Assembly: GCA_016794525.1 (NCBI GenBank)
Contig: JAEUJY010000165.1
Span: 1-64,000 of the forward strand
DNA: 64,000 nt
Direction: 5' to 3'
From: Myxococcales bacterium
GTDB taxonomy: Bacteria; Myxococcota_A; Polyangia; Haliangiales; Haliangiaceae
In this document: positions 55,825 to 63,973 of the stretch, one piece after another
Layout: the number at the start of each line of letters is the position of its first letter
Numbering within the stretch: position 1 is the stretch's first letter
Notes under the pieces: generated by a model
The model's database searches: none
Told to the model about the DNA's origin: nothing
The model's input: the letters and a program-made list of their open reading frames with translations, nothing else
Position numbers and translations under genes: made by a program

Positions 55825-55828
<4 letters not shown>

Positions 55829-57030
55829 CGACCGGCGCCCCGACCGCCGCGCCGCCGATCGCCGTCCCGGCCCCGGGGGCCGCGCCCGACGACGTCGCGC
55901 TGGCCGCGACGCTGGCGCTGGTCGCCGACGCCGAGGCGCTGGCCGCGACGCCCCAGGATCCCGGCTTCCACGCCGAGGGCGACGTCTGGCTCCACACCCG
56001 GATGGCCGTCGCCGCGCTGGTCGCGGATCCAGCGTGGGCCGCGCTCGACGCCACCGGCCGCGCGATCACCTACGCCGCCGTGCTGTTCCACGACGTCGGC
56101 AAGCCGGCCACCACCCGCCACGAGCCCGACGGCCGCATCACCTCGCGCGGCCACAGCGCCCGCGGCGAGCAGGCGGTGCGGGTCGCGCTGTGGCGCGCCG
56201 GCTGGCCGTTCGCGTGGCGCGAGCACGTCTGCGCGCTGGTGCGCTCGCACCAGGTGCCGTTCTTCGGCGTCGATCGCCCCGACGCCACCGCGCTGGCGCT
56301 GCGGCTGAGCCTGAGCCTCCGCCACGACTGGCTGACCGTGGTCGCCACCGCCGACGGCGCCGGCCGCCGCTGCGCCGCGCCCGGCGATCAGGCGCGGATC
56401 CTCGATCAGTGCGCGCTGTGGCGCACGTGGTGCGACGAGCTCGGCGTGCTGACCGGCCCGGCGCGCTTCGCCGACGACCACAGCCGGGTGATCTACCTGG
56501 GCGACGCCTCGGGCACGCGCAGCCCGGCGGTGCCGGCCTTCGACGACACCGTCGCCGAGGCGGTGATCCTCAGCGGCCTGCCGGCCAGCGGCAAGTCGAC
56601 GTTCCTGGCGGCGCACCCCGCCCTGCCGCAGGTGTCGCTCGACGATCTGCGCGACGAGCTCGACGTCGACCCCGCCGACGACCAGGCCGCGGTGATCATG
56701 CTGGCCCGCGAGCGCGCCCGCGAGCACCTGCGGGCCCGCCGGCCGTTCGCGTGGAACGCCACCAACCTGTCGCGGTCGCTGCGCGGCAAGCTGATCGACC
56801 TGTGCCGCGACTACCGCTTCCGCACCCACGTCGTGTACTGCGAGGTCGATCCCGCCGAGCTGGCCCGGCGCAACCGCGCCCGCCCCGAGGCCGCGCGGGT
56901 GCCGGCGCGCGCGATCGAGCGGATGGTCGGCCGCTGGACCGTGCCGACGCCCGACGAGGCGCACCGCGTGAGCTACCGGGTCGCGCGCGACGAGGGTCCG
57001 CTCGCCTGGCCGCCGGCGGACGCCCGATGA
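55825..57030 (+). CDS. HD-Pnk: HD phosphoesterase and 5'-OH polynucleotide kinase
   Basis: A 401-residue bifunctional end-healing enzyme. The N-terminal HD domain (about residues 45-200) has WLHTRMAV, LFHDVGKPATTRHEP, GHSARGEQ and RSHQVPFFG, as needed to remove 2',3'-cyclic or 3' phosphates. The C-terminal P-loop kinase (about 245-400) has GLPASGKST (residues 251-259), SLDDLRDEL and AWNATNLSRSLRGKL. This order matches the HD-Pnk enzyme characterised in Runella. GTG 55825 overlaps the ligase stop; the following ATG overlaps this stop. Confidence 0.9.
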
Positions 57031-58133
57031 GCTACCCGTGGCCGCGCCTCGCCGAGGCCCTCGACTTCACGCCCCGCCGCACCGCGGCACCGTTCGACCT
57101 CACCGCCAGCTTCCGCCAGATCGAGCGCGACCTGACGCCGGAGGTCGTCGCACCCCCCATCGCCAACTCGCACCTGCTGCGCGGGACGTGGCGCGACCGC
57201 CGCGCAGTCATCGCCAACCATCGGGTCGGCGTCGGCGACGATCGGCGCGCGTGCGCGTCGGTGGTGGTCGAGCTCACGCCGCCGCTCCACCTCGCCGCGG
57301 TCTTCGGCGCCCCGCGGCAACTCGACCCGGTCGACCAGGTGAAGCTCGCCGGCAGCCACCGCTGGCTGTCGTTCCAGGGCGCCGACGCCGACGCGGCCCG
57401 CGCGTTCCTGCTCAGCCCGGCGCCGCCGTCCGACCTGCCCGAGCAACTCGCGGACGCGCTCGACCGCGGCTGCACGGTCACCAACTCGAAAGTGTGCTGG
57501 TCGATCGACGACGCCGAGGTCACACCGGACCGGGTGCGCGCCGCCCTGGACGCCTGTCTAGTGCTGGCTGCCGGGCTCGAGGCCCGGCGCGCCACGCTCC
57601 CGGCGCCGCCGTGGGACCTCGACCTGCGCCGCGGGTGGGGCGACCACGCCGCTGCCAGGCGCTTCGCGTTCGATGCGTCGCGCGCGTGCCTGCGCGGCGA
57701 CATCGCCGGCGCCTCGCTCGAGATCGCGATCGAGGAGTGCGGCCCGTGCCTGGACACCACCGTCGACGTCCAGTTCCCCAGCTCGATCGGCGTCGGCCTC
57801 GAGCTCCGGAAGGCCGCCGCGGTGCCGCGGCTGCGCCGCTGGTTCGGCCGGGGCCTCAAGGTCGGCGAGCGCGCCTTCGACGACGCGTTCGTGGTGCGGG
57901 GCACGCCGGCCAGCCACGTCCGGCGGGTCCTGGCCGCGCCGTCGCTGCGCGCCGCGCTGCTCGGCGTGGTCGGCGACGTGGCCGATCTGCGGATGAGCCC
58001 GCACCGCGTGTGGTGGCGGCGCGCCACGCCGATGCTCGAGCGCGCCGCGCTCGACCGTCACGTCGACGCAGCGGCCGCCGTGGTCCGGGCGCTGTTCGAG
58101 GCCGGGGGCGCGGCGCCCGGGCCGTATCGCTAG
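57027..58133 (+). CDS. Unknown protein with an internal duplication, last gene of the RNA-repair operon
   Basis: A 368-residue cytosolic protein with no signal or membrane helix. Two halves appear related: residues about 47-182 (LLRGTWRDRRAVIANHRV ... SSIDDAEVTPDRVRAALDAC-type) and about 228-362 (CLRGDIAGASLEIAIEEC ... DDAFVVRGTPASHVRRVL, then SPHRVWWRRATPML). The second half recalls DUF3137-like beta domains with FDDAFVVRG. The family is not known to me. It is coupled to HD-Pnk by a 4-base overlap, so a link to RNA repair is likely but its role is unknown. Confidence 0.75.
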   Translation: MSYPWPRLAEALDFTPRRTAAPFDLTASFRQIERDLTPEVVAPPIANSHLLRGTWRDRRAVIANHRVGVGDDRRACASVVVELTPPLHLAAVFGAPRQLDPVDQVKLAGSHRWLSFQGADADAARAFLLSPAPPSDLPEQLADALDRGCTVTNSKVCWSIDDAEVTPDRVRAALDACLVLAAGLEARRATLPAPPWDLDLRRGWGDHAAARRFAFDASRACLRGDIAGASLEIAIEECGPCLDTTVDVQFPSSIGVGLELRKAAAVPRLRRWFGRGLKVGERAFDDAFVVRGTPASHVRRVLAAPSLRAALLGVVGDVADLRMSPHRVWWRRATPMLERAALDRHVDAAAAVVRALFEAGGAAPGPYR

Positions 58134-58191: not shown

Positions 58192-60399
58192 ATGGCAGGC
58201 ACCGTCGAGCTCGAGACCATCGCGTCCAACCCTGTCCCCGGCGGCGTCAGCGGCTCGGTGACGTTCAAGATCCGGGTCGACAACGGCCCGGCGGCCTACC
58301 TGCTGGTGGCCGTCCCCGGGCCGGTCGCCAACACGACCGCGCTGATCACCGACGCCTGGGAGCGGCTGGCGGCCGGCGCCGGCGAGTGGATCACCACCGC
58401 GCGTCGCGAGATCGGCGAGAACGCGATGGATCAGATCGAGCACGTCGTCGTGCTGATGCTCGAGAACCGCGGCTTCGACCACGCGCTCGGCTGGCTGTAC
58501 GAGAACGACCACCCGCTGGTGAACCTGCCGGCGGGCCCGGCCCGTCCGCCCAGCCAGGCCAACCTGCGGGACTTCGAGGGCCTGGCCGGCCTCGACCTGG
58601 CGACCTTGACCAACATCATCGGCGAGTCGCCGGAGACCGCGCTGGTGTCGTCGCCGCCGATCCGCGGCGCGTCGTCGCCGATCGCGCCGCCGCAGAACCC
58701 CCACGAGGACTACGTCCACATCTGCGCCGACATGTTCGGCGCGCCGTTCGAGCAGCTCAAGCGCGGCGACATCAAGCCGGCCAACGTCACGATGAAGGGC
58801 TACCTCGCCGACTTCGCCACCAACTTCGACGACGCCTGGGATCCGGTGGCCTACAAGCGGATCATGGAGACCTACCTGCCGGCGCAGCTGCCGGTGCTCA
58901 ACGGCCTGGCCAAGCACTACGGCGTCTCCGACCAGTGGTTCTGCTCGGTGCCGTCCCAGACCAACACCAACCGCGCGTTCCTGCTGGCCGGGACCGCGCG
59001 CGGCATGGTGACCAACGGCTTCTACCCGTACAAGTACGCCAAGAAGAGCTGGGCCTCGGACCAGCTGCCCGCCGACACCCGGACGCTGTTCGACGTGCTC
59101 GAGGAGAACGGCAAGGGCGCGGCGTGGATGTACTTCTGGTCGGGCAACTGGCCGCCCTACCCGACCGGCGACTGGACCTACGTCCGGATCATGTTCCCGC
59201 GGCTCGGCGACAAGAAGTACGACACGAACTTCGCCAAGATCGACGACTTCTTCACCCGGGCCAAGGCCGGGACGCTGCCGGCGGTGAGCTTCCTCGAGCC
59301 CGAGTTCGGCGGCGGCGCGACGATCGACGCGACGCTGCAGAAGAACACCAACGACTACCACCCGGTCCAGGACCTGACCAAGGCCGAGGACTTCGTCCAG
59401 CAGGTCTACGACGCGGTGTCGCGCGGCCCGGCCTGGAGCAAGACGCTGCTGCTGATCACCTTCGACGAGAACGGCGGCACCTACGACCACGTCCCGCCGC
59501 CGGCGGCCACGCCGTCGACCACCCCGGCGTCCAACGCCGACGTCGCGCCGCTGGGCTACGAGCAGCGCGACCTCGACAAGGACACCCGCACCCAGCTCGG
59601 CTTCGGCTTCGACATGTTCGGCGTCCGGGTGCCGACGCTGGCGATCTCGCCGTGGGTGGCCAAGAGCACGGTGTTCCGGTCGCCGACCGACGTGCCGTTC
59701 GATCACACCTCGGTGATCGCGACGATCCTCGAGTGGCAGGGCATCGATCGGGCCACCTGGAACCTCGGCCAGCGCACCGCCGCGGCGCCGACGTTCGACC
59801 TGGTGGTGTCGCTGGACCAGCCGCGTGATCCGAGCGACGCCAGCGTCGGGCTGGCCTTCGGGCCCCGCCCGGTGCGCGCGCCCAACGCCGTGCCGCTCAC
59901 CTACGGCATGACGTTCCGGCTGCAGCACGCCGGCAACCCGTGGGGCCCCGGCCAGGATCCCGGCACCGGGCTGTGGTGGGCCACCGCGGCGCGCAGCCTG
60001 CTCACGTACTACCCGCAGGTCTCGGCGCGGGCCTCCGACGCGGTGACGCTGCGCCTGGTCAGCCCGACCAAGGCGCTGGGCCAGCCGGTGCTCAACAACG
60101 ACGTCGTGCTCGTGGTCTCGACCGAGAGCGACCTCGGCAGCGCCAACGTGCTCGGCGCCTGGGCCGACTCGGCCAACCTGTACTACGCCAAGGCGGCGCT
60201 CGCGACCGACGGCGGGCAGAGCTGGTCGCTGCGGCTGCCGGCCTACCGCGTGTCCGGCGAGCCGGTCTACGTGGGCGATCAGGTGTTCTTCGCCAGCCTG
60301 CGCGCCAAGTACGCCTACCAGCGCATCGTGCCCGAGGCGCCGTGGCTGAACAGCAAGCTCGGCGCGTGGGCGATCTGGACGATCATGGGCCAGGGCTGA
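58192..60399 (+). CDS. Phospholipase C/acid phosphatase-family phosphoesterase with extra N-terminal module
   Basis: A 735-residue enzyme of the phospholipase C/phosphoesterase family. Residues about 1-75 form a separate module (GSVTFKIRVDNGPAAYLLVAV ... LITDAWERLAAGAGEW, spaced out) that recurs in the two small genes downstream. The catalytic domain starts at about 82 with IEHVVVLMLENRGFDHALG, then HYGVSDQWFCSVPSQTNTNRAF, ITFDENGGTYDHVPPP and VPFDHTSVIATILEW. A beta-rich C-terminal part (about 545-735) follows. There is no signal peptide, unusual for the family, so export must use another route. ATG 58192 has no ribosome-binding site. Confidence 0.88.
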   Translation: MAGTVELETIASNPVPGGVSGSVTFKIRVDNGPAAYLLVAVPGPVANTTALITDAWERLAAGAGEWITTARREIGENAMDQIEHVVVLMLENRGFDHALGWLYENDHPLVNLPAGPARPPSQANLRDFEGLAGLDLATLTNIIGESPETALVSSPPIRGASSPIAPPQNPHEDYVHICADMFGAPFEQLKRGDIKPANVTMKGYLADFATNFDDAWDPVAYKRIMETYLPAQLPVLNGLAKHYGVSDQWFCSVPSQTNTNRAFLLAGTARGMVTNGFYPYKYAKKSWASDQLPADTRTLFDVLEENGKGAAWMYFWSGNWPPYPTGDWTYVRIMFPRLGDKKYDTNFAKIDDFFTRAKAGTLPAVSFLEPEFGGGATIDATLQKNTNDYHPVQDLTKAEDFVQQVYDAVSRGPAWSKTLLLITFDENGGTYDHVPPPAATPSTTPASNADVAPLGYEQRDLDKDTRTQLGFGFDMFGVRVPTLAISPWVAKSTVFRSPTDVPFDHTSVIATILEWQGIDRATWNLGQRTAAAPTFDLVVSLDQPRDPSDASVGLAFGPRPVRAPNAVPLTYGMTFRLQHAGNPWGPGQDPGTGLWWATAARSLLTYYPQVSARASDAVTLRLVSPTKALGQPVLNNDVVLVVSTESDLGSANVLGAWADSANLYYAKAALATDGGQSWSLRLPAYRVSGEPVYVGDQVFFASLRAKYAYQRIVPEAPWLNSKLGAWAIWTIMGQG

Positions 60400-60416
60400 G
60401 GCCGCCGCCGCGCGGC

Positions 60417-60644
60417 TCAGCCGCTGGTGCTGGCGGCCCAGCCCGCCAGCGTGGCCGCGAGCTGCGCGCGCAGCGCCGGCATCACCGCGGCGCGGGTCGC
60501 CTGGCCCTGGGTGCGCTGCCGCACGTGCGCCAGCGGCTGGCCGGCCGCGCACAGCGCGAACGTCGCGGCGCCGCCGAAGGTGCCGCCCGGCTCGTCGGTG
60601 ATCTCGGGGTCGTCGGCGACGACCGCGTAGGTTGGCGTCGGCAT
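60417..60644 (-). CDS. 75-residue module protein C
   Basis: A small protein sharing the N-terminal module of the phosphoesterase and of its 75-residue neighbour: GGAATFALCAAGQPLAHV then LRAQLAATLAGWAAS. It has no signal peptide. It ends 17 bases from the convergent phosphoesterase stop and starts one base after the neighbour's stop. Its N-terminus (MPTPTYAVVADDPEI) differs most, so it looks like an older duplicate. Confidence 0.75.
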   Translation of the reverse strand: MPTPTYAVVADDPEITDEPGGTFGGAATFALCAAGQPLAHVRQRTQGQATRAAVMPALRAQLAATLAGWAASTSG

Positions 60645-60645
60645 G

Positions 60646-60873
60646 CTAGCTGCTCAGGCTGGCCTGCCAGCCGCGCAGCGCCGCCGCCAGCTCCTGTTGG
60701 GCCTGGCCGATCAGCGACGTCGGCGCGCTGCTCGGCGCCTCGACGGTGAGCTCGAGCTGCGCCTGGGGTTGGTCGTTGATGAGCAGCAGGAACACGAAGT
60801 CGCCGCGCGTCGACTGTCCCTGCGCGTCGGGCACGAAGCTGGCGTTGGCGAGCCATACGGTGTAGTCAGGCAC
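60646..60873 (-). CDS. 75-residue module protein B
   Basis: A small protein with GDFVFLLLINDQPQAQLELTV, then a linker, then LIGQAQQELAAALRGW. This aligns without gaps over 46 positions with the phosphoesterase N-terminus (Phe5, Pro13, Ala15, Leu17, Pro24, Leu-Ile31-32, Leu-Ala-Ala39-41, Trp46 of the module). A GGAGG site precedes the GTG start. The protein is cytosolic by composition. It could be a chaperone, immunity or structural subunit for the phospholipases. Confidence 0.8.
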   Translation of the reverse strand: MPDYTVWLANASFVPDAQGQSTRGDFVFLLLINDQPQAQLELTVEAPSSAPTSLIGQAQQELAAALRGWQASLSS

Positions 60874-60909: not shown

Positions 60910-62523
60910 TCACATCCAGGTGAAGCCGAGCGGATTCTGCGGCGGCACCTGGCTCAGGTCGGCGATGGTCAGCGGCCGCACGTAGGTGCGGTCGGGCGCC
61001 TCGATCGCGTTCACGGTCGCGATCAGGTCCCAGTTGTCGGGCGTCAGCGGCAGCCGCGGGTTCCAGTGCGAGAACAGCCGGGCGCGGATCTCGGCGGCGA
61101 CCCGCGCGTCGTCGATGAACGCGACGATCTCGCCGTCGTACACCATCGAGCGGTAGGTCAGGTTGGCGGTGCCGACCATCGCGACGCGATCATCGAACAA
61201 CGCCAGCTTCGAGTGCAGGTACGCCGGCGCGCTGGGGCCGGCCGGCGCGACCACCGCGGTCGGCGCGTAGAACCGCACGCCGCCATCGATGGCGATGAGG
61301 TCGCGCAGCCGGGTGGTGCCGGCGCGGCCGTCGGGGAGCGCCCACTCGAGGGCGTCGTCCTCGAGGTTGCGGTTGGCGATCCCGCTCGAGATGCTGCGCC
61401 ACGTGCTCCAGAAGTTCCAGTCCTGGCGCAGCCGCCAGCGGGTCGCGGTGGCGCGGGTCAGCACCAGCGGCCCGCCGAGCCCGCCGGGATCGGGCACCGT
61501 GCAGGTGGTGCACGTCGACAGCGCCAGCTTGGCCCACGACACGTAGTTGAACCACTTGAAGGCGGCCTCGTCGGCCGGCCAGTTGTTGTTGAGGTTGACG
61601 ATCAACGTCGGCGGCGCCGGCGCCGCCAGCCGCGCGATCAGCGCGTCGACCAGCGTCGGATCGGTGAAGCCGTAGTTCTCGAAGTAGATGTAGTCGGTGG
61701 CGGCCGCGATCTCGCGCACCAGGCGCGCCTGGATGTCGGTCTCGCGGAACCAGCCCTCGGCGTTGGTGGTGGCGATCGCGACCCGGGCGGCGCCGGTCTG
61801 CGGGTCGGCGTACGCGACCTGGGCGGTCGCGTTGGCGACCGCCGGCAGCCCCGACTTGGTCCACCGCCGCAGCCACTCGCGCTCGACGTCGGAGGTCGCC
61901 GGCCCGCGCAGCCGCACCGCCGTGTCGTGCCAGTGCATCGGGTACAGCGCCCGATCGTGCGCGACGACGTCGTAGTACGACGCGAGCAGGTTGAACCCGC
62001 CGATCAGGCACGTGCGCTGACCGGCGATCGACGCGATCAAGACCTTCTGGTGGTTCGACGCGCCGGGCACCCAGCGGTTGATCGGCTCGAGGTAGATGCG
62101 CATCGGCACCGCGCCGCCGCCGAGCCCGGCGTTGGCCAGGTTGACCGCGGTCTGCAGCGCGAGCGCGCCCGCCGCCATCTGATCGGCGGCCTGCTGCGCC
62201 TGCTGGCGCTGGGCCGGGCCGACCAGCCGCTCGATCACGTCGCCGGTCATGCCGCGCACCGCCGCGGCCTCCCACGCCGCGTAGACGATGATGTCGACCT
62301 GGTGGCCGGCGGCGGCGGCGGCGGTGAGGCGCGCGATCAGCGTCGGACCGCCCGGCCCGAGCGGGCACGTCGCGTCGGCGGCCCAGTAGGCCAGCCGCAG
62401 GTAGGTCCCGGCCGCGGCCGGGGCGGCGACGACCGCGTCGACCTGCGCGCGGAACTCGGCGAAGAACTCCTCGCCATCGAGCAAGAACTCGACCTCGTTG
62501 TCGTCGGACTCGGCGCTCGACAT
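60910..62523 (-). CDS. Phospholipase D-family protein
   Basis: A 537-residue protein with two HKD-type motifs. The first, NHQKVLIASIAG (His158, Lys160), has Ser165 where Asp is expected, followed by IGGFNLL. The second, LHSKLALFDDRVAMVGTANLT (His437, Lys439, Asp444), is canonical. Two phosphodiesterase halves are thus present, one degenerate. No signal peptide is seen; the N-terminus is acidic (AESDDNEVE). An AGGAG site precedes the ATG. It follows a 92-residue gene and precedes the two module genes, all in the same direction. Confidence 0.88.
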   Translation of the reverse strand: MSSAESDDNEVEFLLDGEEFFAEFRAQVDAVVAAPAAAGTYLRLAYWAADATCPLGPGGPTLIARLTAAAAAGHQVDIIVYAAWEAAAVRGMTGDVIERLVGPAQRQQAQQAADQMAAGALALQTAVNLANAGLGGGAVPMRIYLEPINRWVPGASNHQKVLIASIAGQRTCLIGGFNLLASYYDVVAHDRALYPMHWHDTAVRLRGPATSDVEREWLRRWTKSGLPAVANATAQVAYADPQTGAARVAIATTNAEGWFRETDIQARLVREIAAATDYIYFENYGFTDPTLVDALIARLAAPAPPTLIVNLNNNWPADEAAFKWFNYVSWAKLALSTCTTCTVPDPGGLGGPLVLTRATATRWRLRQDWNFWSTWRSISSGIANRNLEDDALEWALPDGRAGTTRLRDLIAIDGGVRFYAPTAVVAPAGPSAPAYLHSKLALFDDRVAMVGTANLTYRSMVYDGEIVAFIDDARVAAEIRARLFSHWNPRLPLTPDNWDLIATVNAIEAPDRTYVRPLTIADLSQVPPQNPLGFTWM

Positions 62524-62903: not shown

Positions 62904-63371
62904 TCATCCGCCGCGCCGCGGTGGGCCGCTCGCCGCGGCGGCGAGGCGCTGGCTCGCGGCCGCCAGGCGCTGGTTGATCTGGCGCTCGGCCGCACGGATC
63001 TTCTGCGCGGTCGCGCGCACCGCGTCGACCAGCACCGGCGGCATCGCGGTCGGCGGCATGGCGGTCGGCGGCGTCGCGGTCGGCGGCGTCGCGGTCGGCG
63101 GCGTCACCGTTGGCGGCGTGGCGGTCGGCGGCGTGATCACCGGCGGCGCGATCACCGGCGGCGCGATCATCGGCGCCTGATAGCTGGGCAGCTGGTAGCT
63201 CGGGGCCACCACGTCGCGCGACGCGGCCGGCGCCTCGACCACCGGCGCCGCGATCGTCGCCGGCACGACCGGCTGCGGGCTGGGTGGCCGCAGCAGGTCG
63301 CTCAGGTCGCCCAGCGCCGCCGGCCATCCGCTCGCCCGCACCGCGCGCACCGCCGCCCGCCGCCGCCTCAC
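62904..63371 (-). CDS. Proline/threonine-repeat protein
   Basis: A 155-residue protein. An Arg-rich start (RRRRAAVRAVRASGWPAALGDLSDLL) leads to a Pro/Val/Ala stretch with PSYQLPSYQAP, then repeated PPTATPPT/PPVIAPPVI units (about residues 68-108). A helical, charged end follows (LVDAVRATAQKIRAAERQINQRLAAASQRLAA). The GTG start overlaps the stop of the Nudix gene (GTGA), supporting its reality. A flexible spacer joined to a coiled-coil tail suggests a structural or adaptor protein. Confidence 0.65.
   Translation of the reverse strand: MRRRRAAVRAVRASGWPAALGDLSDLLRPPSPQPVVPATIAAPVVEAPAASRDVVAPSYQLPSYQAPMIAPPVIAPPVITPPTATPPTVTPPTATPPTATPPTAMPPTAMPPVLVDAVRATAQKIRAAERQINQRLAAASQRLAAAASGPPRRGG
63043..63172 (-). 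repeat. 15-bp tandem repeats in the proline-rich gene
   Basis: Six near-identical 15-bp units of GCGGTCGGCGGCGTC (plus strand) followed by ATCACCGGCGGCGCG variants encode the PPTAT/PPVIA repeats. Confidence 0.8.
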
Positions 63372-63973
63372 GGCGACGGGCTCGTCACGACCGGCCCCAG
63401 CGTCGGCGGCGCGGTCTTGGGGCTGAGCACGTCGAGCAGCAGCTGGGCCAGGCCGCGGGCGTAGCGGAGGTGGCTGGCGTTGGCGCGCGAGGTGATCAGG
63501 TCGCGCGCGAAGCCGGCGTTGAGCGCGCGCATCAGCTGCGCCGACACCCACGGCAGCTGCTGGTACTCCGGCTTGTTGCCCAGCGCGCACGTCGCCATCT
63601 CGACCGGGAACCAGCGCACGTGGTTGTAGGCCAGGCTGCCGGTGCGCCCCTCGTTGATCGCGAGGTTGATCGCGTCGACGTCGACGCCGGGCGGGTTCGC
63701 CGCCTGGAAGAACGTGTCGGTGGCGTCGGCGCACAGCGGCGCCAGCGCCGCCGGGGCCAGCTTCACGCCGAGATCGGTCAGCTCGCGCAGCGCCGCGTCG
63801 GCCGGCTGCTCGCCGGGGCCGACCGCGCCGCCCGGCACGACGTACTGCACGGCGTTGCGGCCCACCGTGGCGAACTGGTAGCGCCCGTGGGGCGGCAGGT
63901 AGATGTTCTTCTGCGCGAGCAGGACGTCGGCGTTGCTGCCGTTCCGCCGCACGACGGTGACATACGCGTGCAT
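63368..63973 (-). CDS. Degenerate Nudix-domain protein
   Basis: A 201-residue protein with a Nudix-like fold: MHAYVTVVRRNG, VLLAQKNIYLPPHGRYQFATVG, and a Nudix-box relic GGAVGPGEQPADAALRELTDLGV. The canonical REUxEExGU end is shortened to RELTDLGV, losing the paired Glu that bind metal, so hydrolase activity is doubtful. The second half has NEGRTGSLAYNHVRWFPVEM and a helical end. An AGGAGG site lies 5 bases before the ATG. It precedes the proline-rich gene with a 4-base overlap. Confidence 0.8.
   Translation of the reverse strand: MHAYVTVVRRNGSNADVLLAQKNIYLPPHGRYQFATVGRNAVQYVVPGGAVGPGEQPADAALRELTDLGVKLAPAALAPLCADATDTFFQAANPPGVDVDAINLAINEGRTGSLAYNHVRWFPVEMATCALGNKPEYQQLPWVSAQLMRALNAGFARDLITSRANASHLRYARGLAQLLLDVLSPKTAPPTLGPVVTSPSP

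Follow-up and report, generated by a model that had tools for sequence, protein, structure and literature searches.

One small module fused to a phospholipase-C-like enzyme and encoded twice as a free protein beside a phospholipase D in a predicted R-body island of a Myxococcales bacterium

In the first 64,000 bases of the 190,687-base contig JAEUJY010000165.1 of a Myxococcales bacterium (assembly GCA_016794525.1; this stretch is called the window, and its coordinates agree with those of the contig), we identified a small module that is fused to the N-terminus of a phosphoesterase of the phospholipase C type (PLC) and recurs in two separate proteins, B and C, encoded next to an enzyme of the phospholipase D superfamily (PLD). 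The module genes form one end of a 13-kb island (contig 57.03-70.0 kb) that, judged by its Reb genes, is an R-body (refractile body, 'killing trait') locus. R-bodies are coiled protein ribbons that burst membranes. The best reading of the data, to which we give somewhat less than an even chance, is that the island equips an R-body system with a payload of cytoplasmic phospholipases and that the module is their cargo-docking domain. The features concerned are listed below.

58192-60399, plus strand: phosphoesterase (phospholipase-C-like enzyme, PLC), 735 aa, PF04185 (E 1e-55), without export signal; it matches solved phospholipases C and has conserved catalytic motifs
58192-58410, plus strand: module A, residues 1-73 of the phosphoesterase, recognized by sequence comparison and beta-beta-beta-alpha in the full-length model (low confidence)
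58435-59730, plus strand: catalytic domain of the phosphoesterase (residues 82-513), with E91, N92, T257, N260, R261, H390, D425, E426, D504 and H505 kept
59868-60396, plus strand: C-terminal beta-rich domain of the phosphoesterase, common to its orthologue and to a second phosphoesterase in the same-genus genome G018; it shows strands in the model and is trefoil-like by eye only
60417-60644, minus strand: protein C, free module copy, 75 aa, starting immediately after the B stop codon
60646-60873, minus strand: protein B, free module copy, 75 aa, with a GTG start behind a GGAGG ribosome-binding site
60910-62523, minus strand: PLD-superfamily enzyme, 537 aa, without export signal, PF13091 (E 5e-19), motifs HQKVLIAS (158) and HSKLALFD (437)

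An earlier reading of the window from its letters alone (the sequence-only reading) had proposed a module common to the N-terminus of the phosphoesterase and the two 75-residue proteins. All three open reading frames (ORFs) were found where it had placed them, and shuffling and leave-one-out profiles bore the proposal out, so that sequence comparison confirms the homology of A, B and C as real, though distant. The pattern F(x7)PxA is exact in A, B and C as claimed; LI(x6)LAAxLxxW is exact in B and only near in C (VM for LI) and A (LAAxAxxW). The ungapped alignment of B with the phosphoesterase proved slightly longer than the 46 positions given for it, as residues 22-70 of B align with 19-67 of A over 49 positions with 31% identity. 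Identity between the copies is 28-31%, which means strong divergence. Against 6000 composition-preserving shuffles, no shuffle reached the Smith-Waterman score of A with B (z 9.4) or of B with C (z 8.2), while A with C was weak (z 3.0, reached by 74 of 6000); A and the module of the G018 phosphoesterase gave z 9.7. A profile search, suggested in the same reading as a check, was run as leave-one-out hidden Markov models against 4026 ORFs, with rank counted among non-training matches, and it recovered the omitted copy, mostly in first place. The profile of B and C found A first (E 0.008), that of A and B found C first (E 0.005), that of A and C found B first (E 6e-7), and that of B, C and G018 found A first (E 1.6e-5); with A and G018, B came second (E 0.008) after a match in a probably non-coding frame. 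With B as query, the complete 9.8-Mb genome returned B, C and A only (E <= 10). C and A each reached just E 0.2 individually, yet it is very unlikely that both would fall within 3 kb of DNA by chance. Composition-adjusted BLASTP connected B with C (E 2e-5) and gave no N-terminal match between B and the full phosphoesterase, indicating that the relation of A and B is real but distant.

AlphaFold2, run with an alignment of four rows, predicted B as a beta-beta-beta-alpha fold with a mean pLDDT (predicted local distance difference test) of 83. The same order appears at the N-terminus of the full-length phosphoesterase model with low confidence (mean pLDDT 55), and this model is too weak to place the module. 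B and C matched no Pfam or NCBIfam family above cut-off, the module had no credible sequence match in the PDB, and Foldseek returned nothing below E 0.1; VIA-align gave middling Z scores (<= 6.7) to LptE, HPF, double-stranded-RNA-binding, SecB and Rv2632c folds. Profile searches of 379 genomes of the phylum and 19 other Reb genomes found four copies only, namely A, B, C and the one in the G018 phosphoesterase, with none in the 19 Reb genomes. In the phylum sample, which contains both the source genome and G018, no other genome had a confirmed module, and these are the same two that hold Reb genes among 30 genomes of the family. Viral contigs scanned with B gave nothing. The other low-E matches that were inspected (the N-terminus of a kinase, a HemG-like protein, GC-rich frames and a secreted protein of genome G119) look like chance, and a match of the A and G018 profile in the Reb cluster of genome G142 was discarded, as it lies upstream of a Reb start in a frame that is probably non-coding.

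The phosphoesterase scores 189.8 bits against PF04185 (cut-off 23), and the active-site motifs of the family are conserved in an alignment of 11 sequences that includes it. It shares the catalytic domain and these motifs with the bacterial and plant non-specific phospholipases C and the acid phosphatases of PF04185, and differs from them in that the N-terminal module replaces an export signal and a beta-rich domain is added at the C-terminus. It scores well below the equivalog cut-off of TIGR03396, phosphocholine-specific phospholipase C (126 bits against 580). The lack of a signal peptide, pointed out in the sequence-only reading, was confirmed by reading the sequence. By eye, many PF04185 proteins of the class have a Tat- or lipoprotein-like N-terminus in place of the module, and some close relatives carry other domains at this position. 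A scan of the PLC against the collection of genome contigs found nothing.

PLD, B and C are closely spaced, with B starting 36 bases downstream of PLD, and the frames of B and C both score as coding; a promoter and terminator scan was empty. The PLD assignment is supported by PF13091 and PF00614, both above cut-off, and by two HKD motifs, of which HSKLALFD is canonical and HQKVLIAS has S in place of D. This form of the first motif, HxKx4S, is common to relatives in genomes G056 and G148. The nearest solved relatives, within the same HKD superfamily, are mammalian PLD1/2 and the bacterial PLD 7v53, which we take to be the type VI effector PldA/Tle5; unlike the setting of such an effector, the island proteins scanned here include no type VI genes, and the HxKx4S motif is a further difference. 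A profile search found no module in PLD itself. In the simplest pattern, PLC thus carries its module as a fused domain and PLD is provided with two free ones, and B and C more likely serve PLD than PLC. Because G018 has a module-bearing PLC without free copies, B and C are neither required partners of PLC nor its immunity proteins; from the suggestion of an inhibitory or immunity unit made in the sequence-only reading, the inhibitory part survives and a dedicated immunity to PLC falls away. One could also regard the module as a mere lipid- or partner-binding accessory of PLC, with B and C as duplicated fragments that have no role in an R-body payload. The strong divergence of the copies and the presence of B and C in one genome only would fit this, and free copies could derive from a duplicated 5' end of the PLC gene. 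The clean ribosome-binding site of B, the position of C directly behind it, the coding character of both frames and the prediction that B folds well as a complete domain speak against it, and we consider this the least probable of the explanations weighed here.

A run of small genes starts about 30 bases beyond the end of the window and includes Reb genes, LuxR-type regulators and hypothetical proteins, with five RebB-family (PF11747) matches at C41:64584-68764 (best E 6.7e-28). The minus strand is used throughout from the Reb run to a NUDIX-fold protein, a proline-rich protein, PLD, B and C, and the phosphoesterase, on the plus strand, points towards them. The island also encodes a GH25 plus SH3 (lysozyme-like) protein. 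It resembles the R-body (reb) loci of Caedibacter taeniospiralis, Pseudomonas aeruginosa PA14 and Azorhizobium caulinodans in its tandem RebB-family genes with regulators and hypothetical proteins and in spreading by transfer, and these genes suggest that R-bodies are produced. In the R-body literature searched, no phospholipase is reported for the known loci and the toxin is called unknown, whereas here PLC and PLD genes occur with a shared module. The scan of island proteins turned up no secretion-system gene and no delivery genes or domains that would make the enzymes type VI or contractile-injection effectors. The remaining two features of the window in this part of the island are as follows.

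62904-63266, minus strand: proline-rich protein with a helical C-terminus, start uncertain; by eye, G018 has a similar ORF in the corresponding position
63368-63973, minus strand: NUDIX-fold protein, 58% identical in the G018 island

Of 30 genomes of the family, two carry Reb genes, the source and G018. G018 has six RebB genes above the Pfam cut-off, and its Reb island, on contig C8, ends with the same PLC-like enzyme and module. Homology between the two islands spans the LuxR gene (68932-69123) to PLC (58192-60399), which is the exact end of the block; the stretches at 40-58 kb and 69.5-78 kb gave no match to the G018 Reb region except one short chance-like one. Furthermore, G018 contains an empty site (L148:4816-5025 on G018:C66), where homologues of the source sequences 55825-57030 and 70003-71634 lie just 206 bp apart. 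Together with the island on C8, this places the Reb unit with its PLC at different chromosomal positions in the two species, and the 13-kb island thus appears to be movable. As the block is conserved between two differently placed islands, PLC belongs to the Reb unit. This speaks against the possibility that PLC and PLD are unrelated to R-bodies and merely share the island with the Reb cluster, since nothing outside the block that ends exactly with PLC is conserved. In favour of mere sharing are the commonness of PF04185 in the class, the PLD relatives of G056 and G148, which adjoin other genes, and the G018 island, in which no GH25 and, as in the rest of that genome, no B, C or close PLD relative was found; on balance we hold it to be improbable.

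Some other features of the island were recorded in the same comparison. A low-complexity repeat lies between the flank homologues at the empty site. The RebB gene at contig 65214-65486 (L034:7215-7487) is 98% identical to G018:C8:91057-91329 and the phosphoesterase 53%, so divergence within the island is unequal. The genes at the island edges (57027-58133 and contig 69525-69836) have no relatives in the G018 region.

In the proposed mechanism, PLC and PLD, having no export signals, would accumulate in the cytoplasm as payload. Extension of the R-body in an ingesting protist would rupture the bacterium and the food vacuole, and the freed phospholipases would attack eukaryotic membranes, with the GH25 protein perhaps helping to free them. 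The module would act as a docking domain that links both enzymes to the R-body machinery or some other protein encoded by the island, in cis for PLC and in trans, through B and C, for PLD. The close rival to this docking role, which we regard as unlikely though less so than the two alternatives weighed above, is that the module is an N-terminal pro-domain that silences PLC inside the producing cell, and that B and C are free inhibitors of PLD. About 10 residues lie between the end of the module and the strand leading to catalytic Glu91, which probably puts A on the side of the active site; the gene order, with B and C behind PLD, is one often seen for immunity genes; and phospholipases without an export signal may need to be kept safe in the producer. 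Some protease pro-domains, for example those of the subtilisin type, are also found as separate inhibitors and offer a lead, since there too a small domain occurs N-terminally fused to an enzyme as well as on its own; the enzymes here are phospholipases and the likeness is one of arrangement. At the same time, PLC and PLD have unrelated folds that one inhibitor fold would have to mask, the G018 PLC manages without free copies, and no inhibitor is needed in the cytoplasm for many lipase effectors that are produced there. One small fold accompanying two unrelated enzymes, in one case fused and in the other separate, fits a common partner better than two inhibitions, and for the module we therefore tentatively favour docking over masking. 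The loading tag or adaptor of the sequence-only reading is retained in this form, and its secretion tag finds no support in an R-body locus whose scanned proteins include no secretion-system gene; its functional suggestions are thus partly supported.

Several observations weigh against a phospholipase payload that is docked by the module. The module is limited to two genomes of one genus and its free copies to one. Its predicted fold is a common arrangement that many unrelated folds resemble, and indicates no function. Some other PF04185 relatives also have no export signal. PLC is convergent to the Reb run and lies outside its transcription unit. Among 11 Reb-bearing genomes of the class, PF04185 occurs in the Reb island of the source and G018 only, with none in the Reb clusters of the nine others (some assemblies are fragmented); a payload of this kind does not characterize R-body systems in general. 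In a Myxococcaceae metagenome-assembled genome (MAG; L092), a further PLC is encoded 2.6 kb from Reb genes; it has no module, is separated from them by unrelated genes and was not counted as support.

Other Reb neighbourhoods contain different candidates. Genome G042 encodes, 1.6 kb from Reb-like genes, a protein (L076:3913-5055, minus strand) resembling phosphatidylinositol-specific phospholipase C (PI-PLC), with the motif TIPGTHDAG and E 0.003 to bacterial PI-PLC structures. In two related genomes, an S8 subtilase (L081:7234-9429, minus strand, and L082) adjoins a 109-aa protein beside Reb genes, and an Rv2525c-like glycoside hydrolase is also present there. In a Verrucomicrobia MAG, an eCIS_core (PF13699) protein lies between Reb-like genes (L096:11693-13228, plus strand), and another (L035:17412-19367) is found some 6 kb past the G018 PLC, where the conserved block has ended. 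The PI-PLC-like, subtilase and eCIS_core proteins in or near other Reb clusters weakly suggest that payloads are swapped between Reb islands.

In other R-body systems, ingestion is followed by acid-triggered extension and membrane rupture, together with the action of an unknown toxin (PMC3583457, PMC7297999, PMC8322103, PMC13430693). R-bodies are not toxic alone and deliver a toxin that is still unknown (PMC3583457, PMC7297999, PMC13430693); paramecia have long been known to be killed by R-bodies only in combination with such a toxin. None of the toxin candidates from the Caedibacter plasmid is conserved among other bacteria with Reb genes (PMC3583457), and more recent studies still describe the toxin as unknown (PMC7297999, PMC13430693). 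It is the R-body setting, outside the window of the sequence-only reading, that gives the shared module its interest. The stronger proposition, that the R-body killer toxin consists of cytoplasmic phospholipases and that the module is a dedicated R-body cargo domain acting in cis in PLC and in trans in PLD through B and C, is doubtful, and less likely in our view than even the masking of the enzymes. PLC and PLD are nevertheless candidates for the long-missing R-body toxin that can be assayed biochemically, and the module would provide a built-in handle on the question of whether the payload is attached to R-bodies or just spilled.
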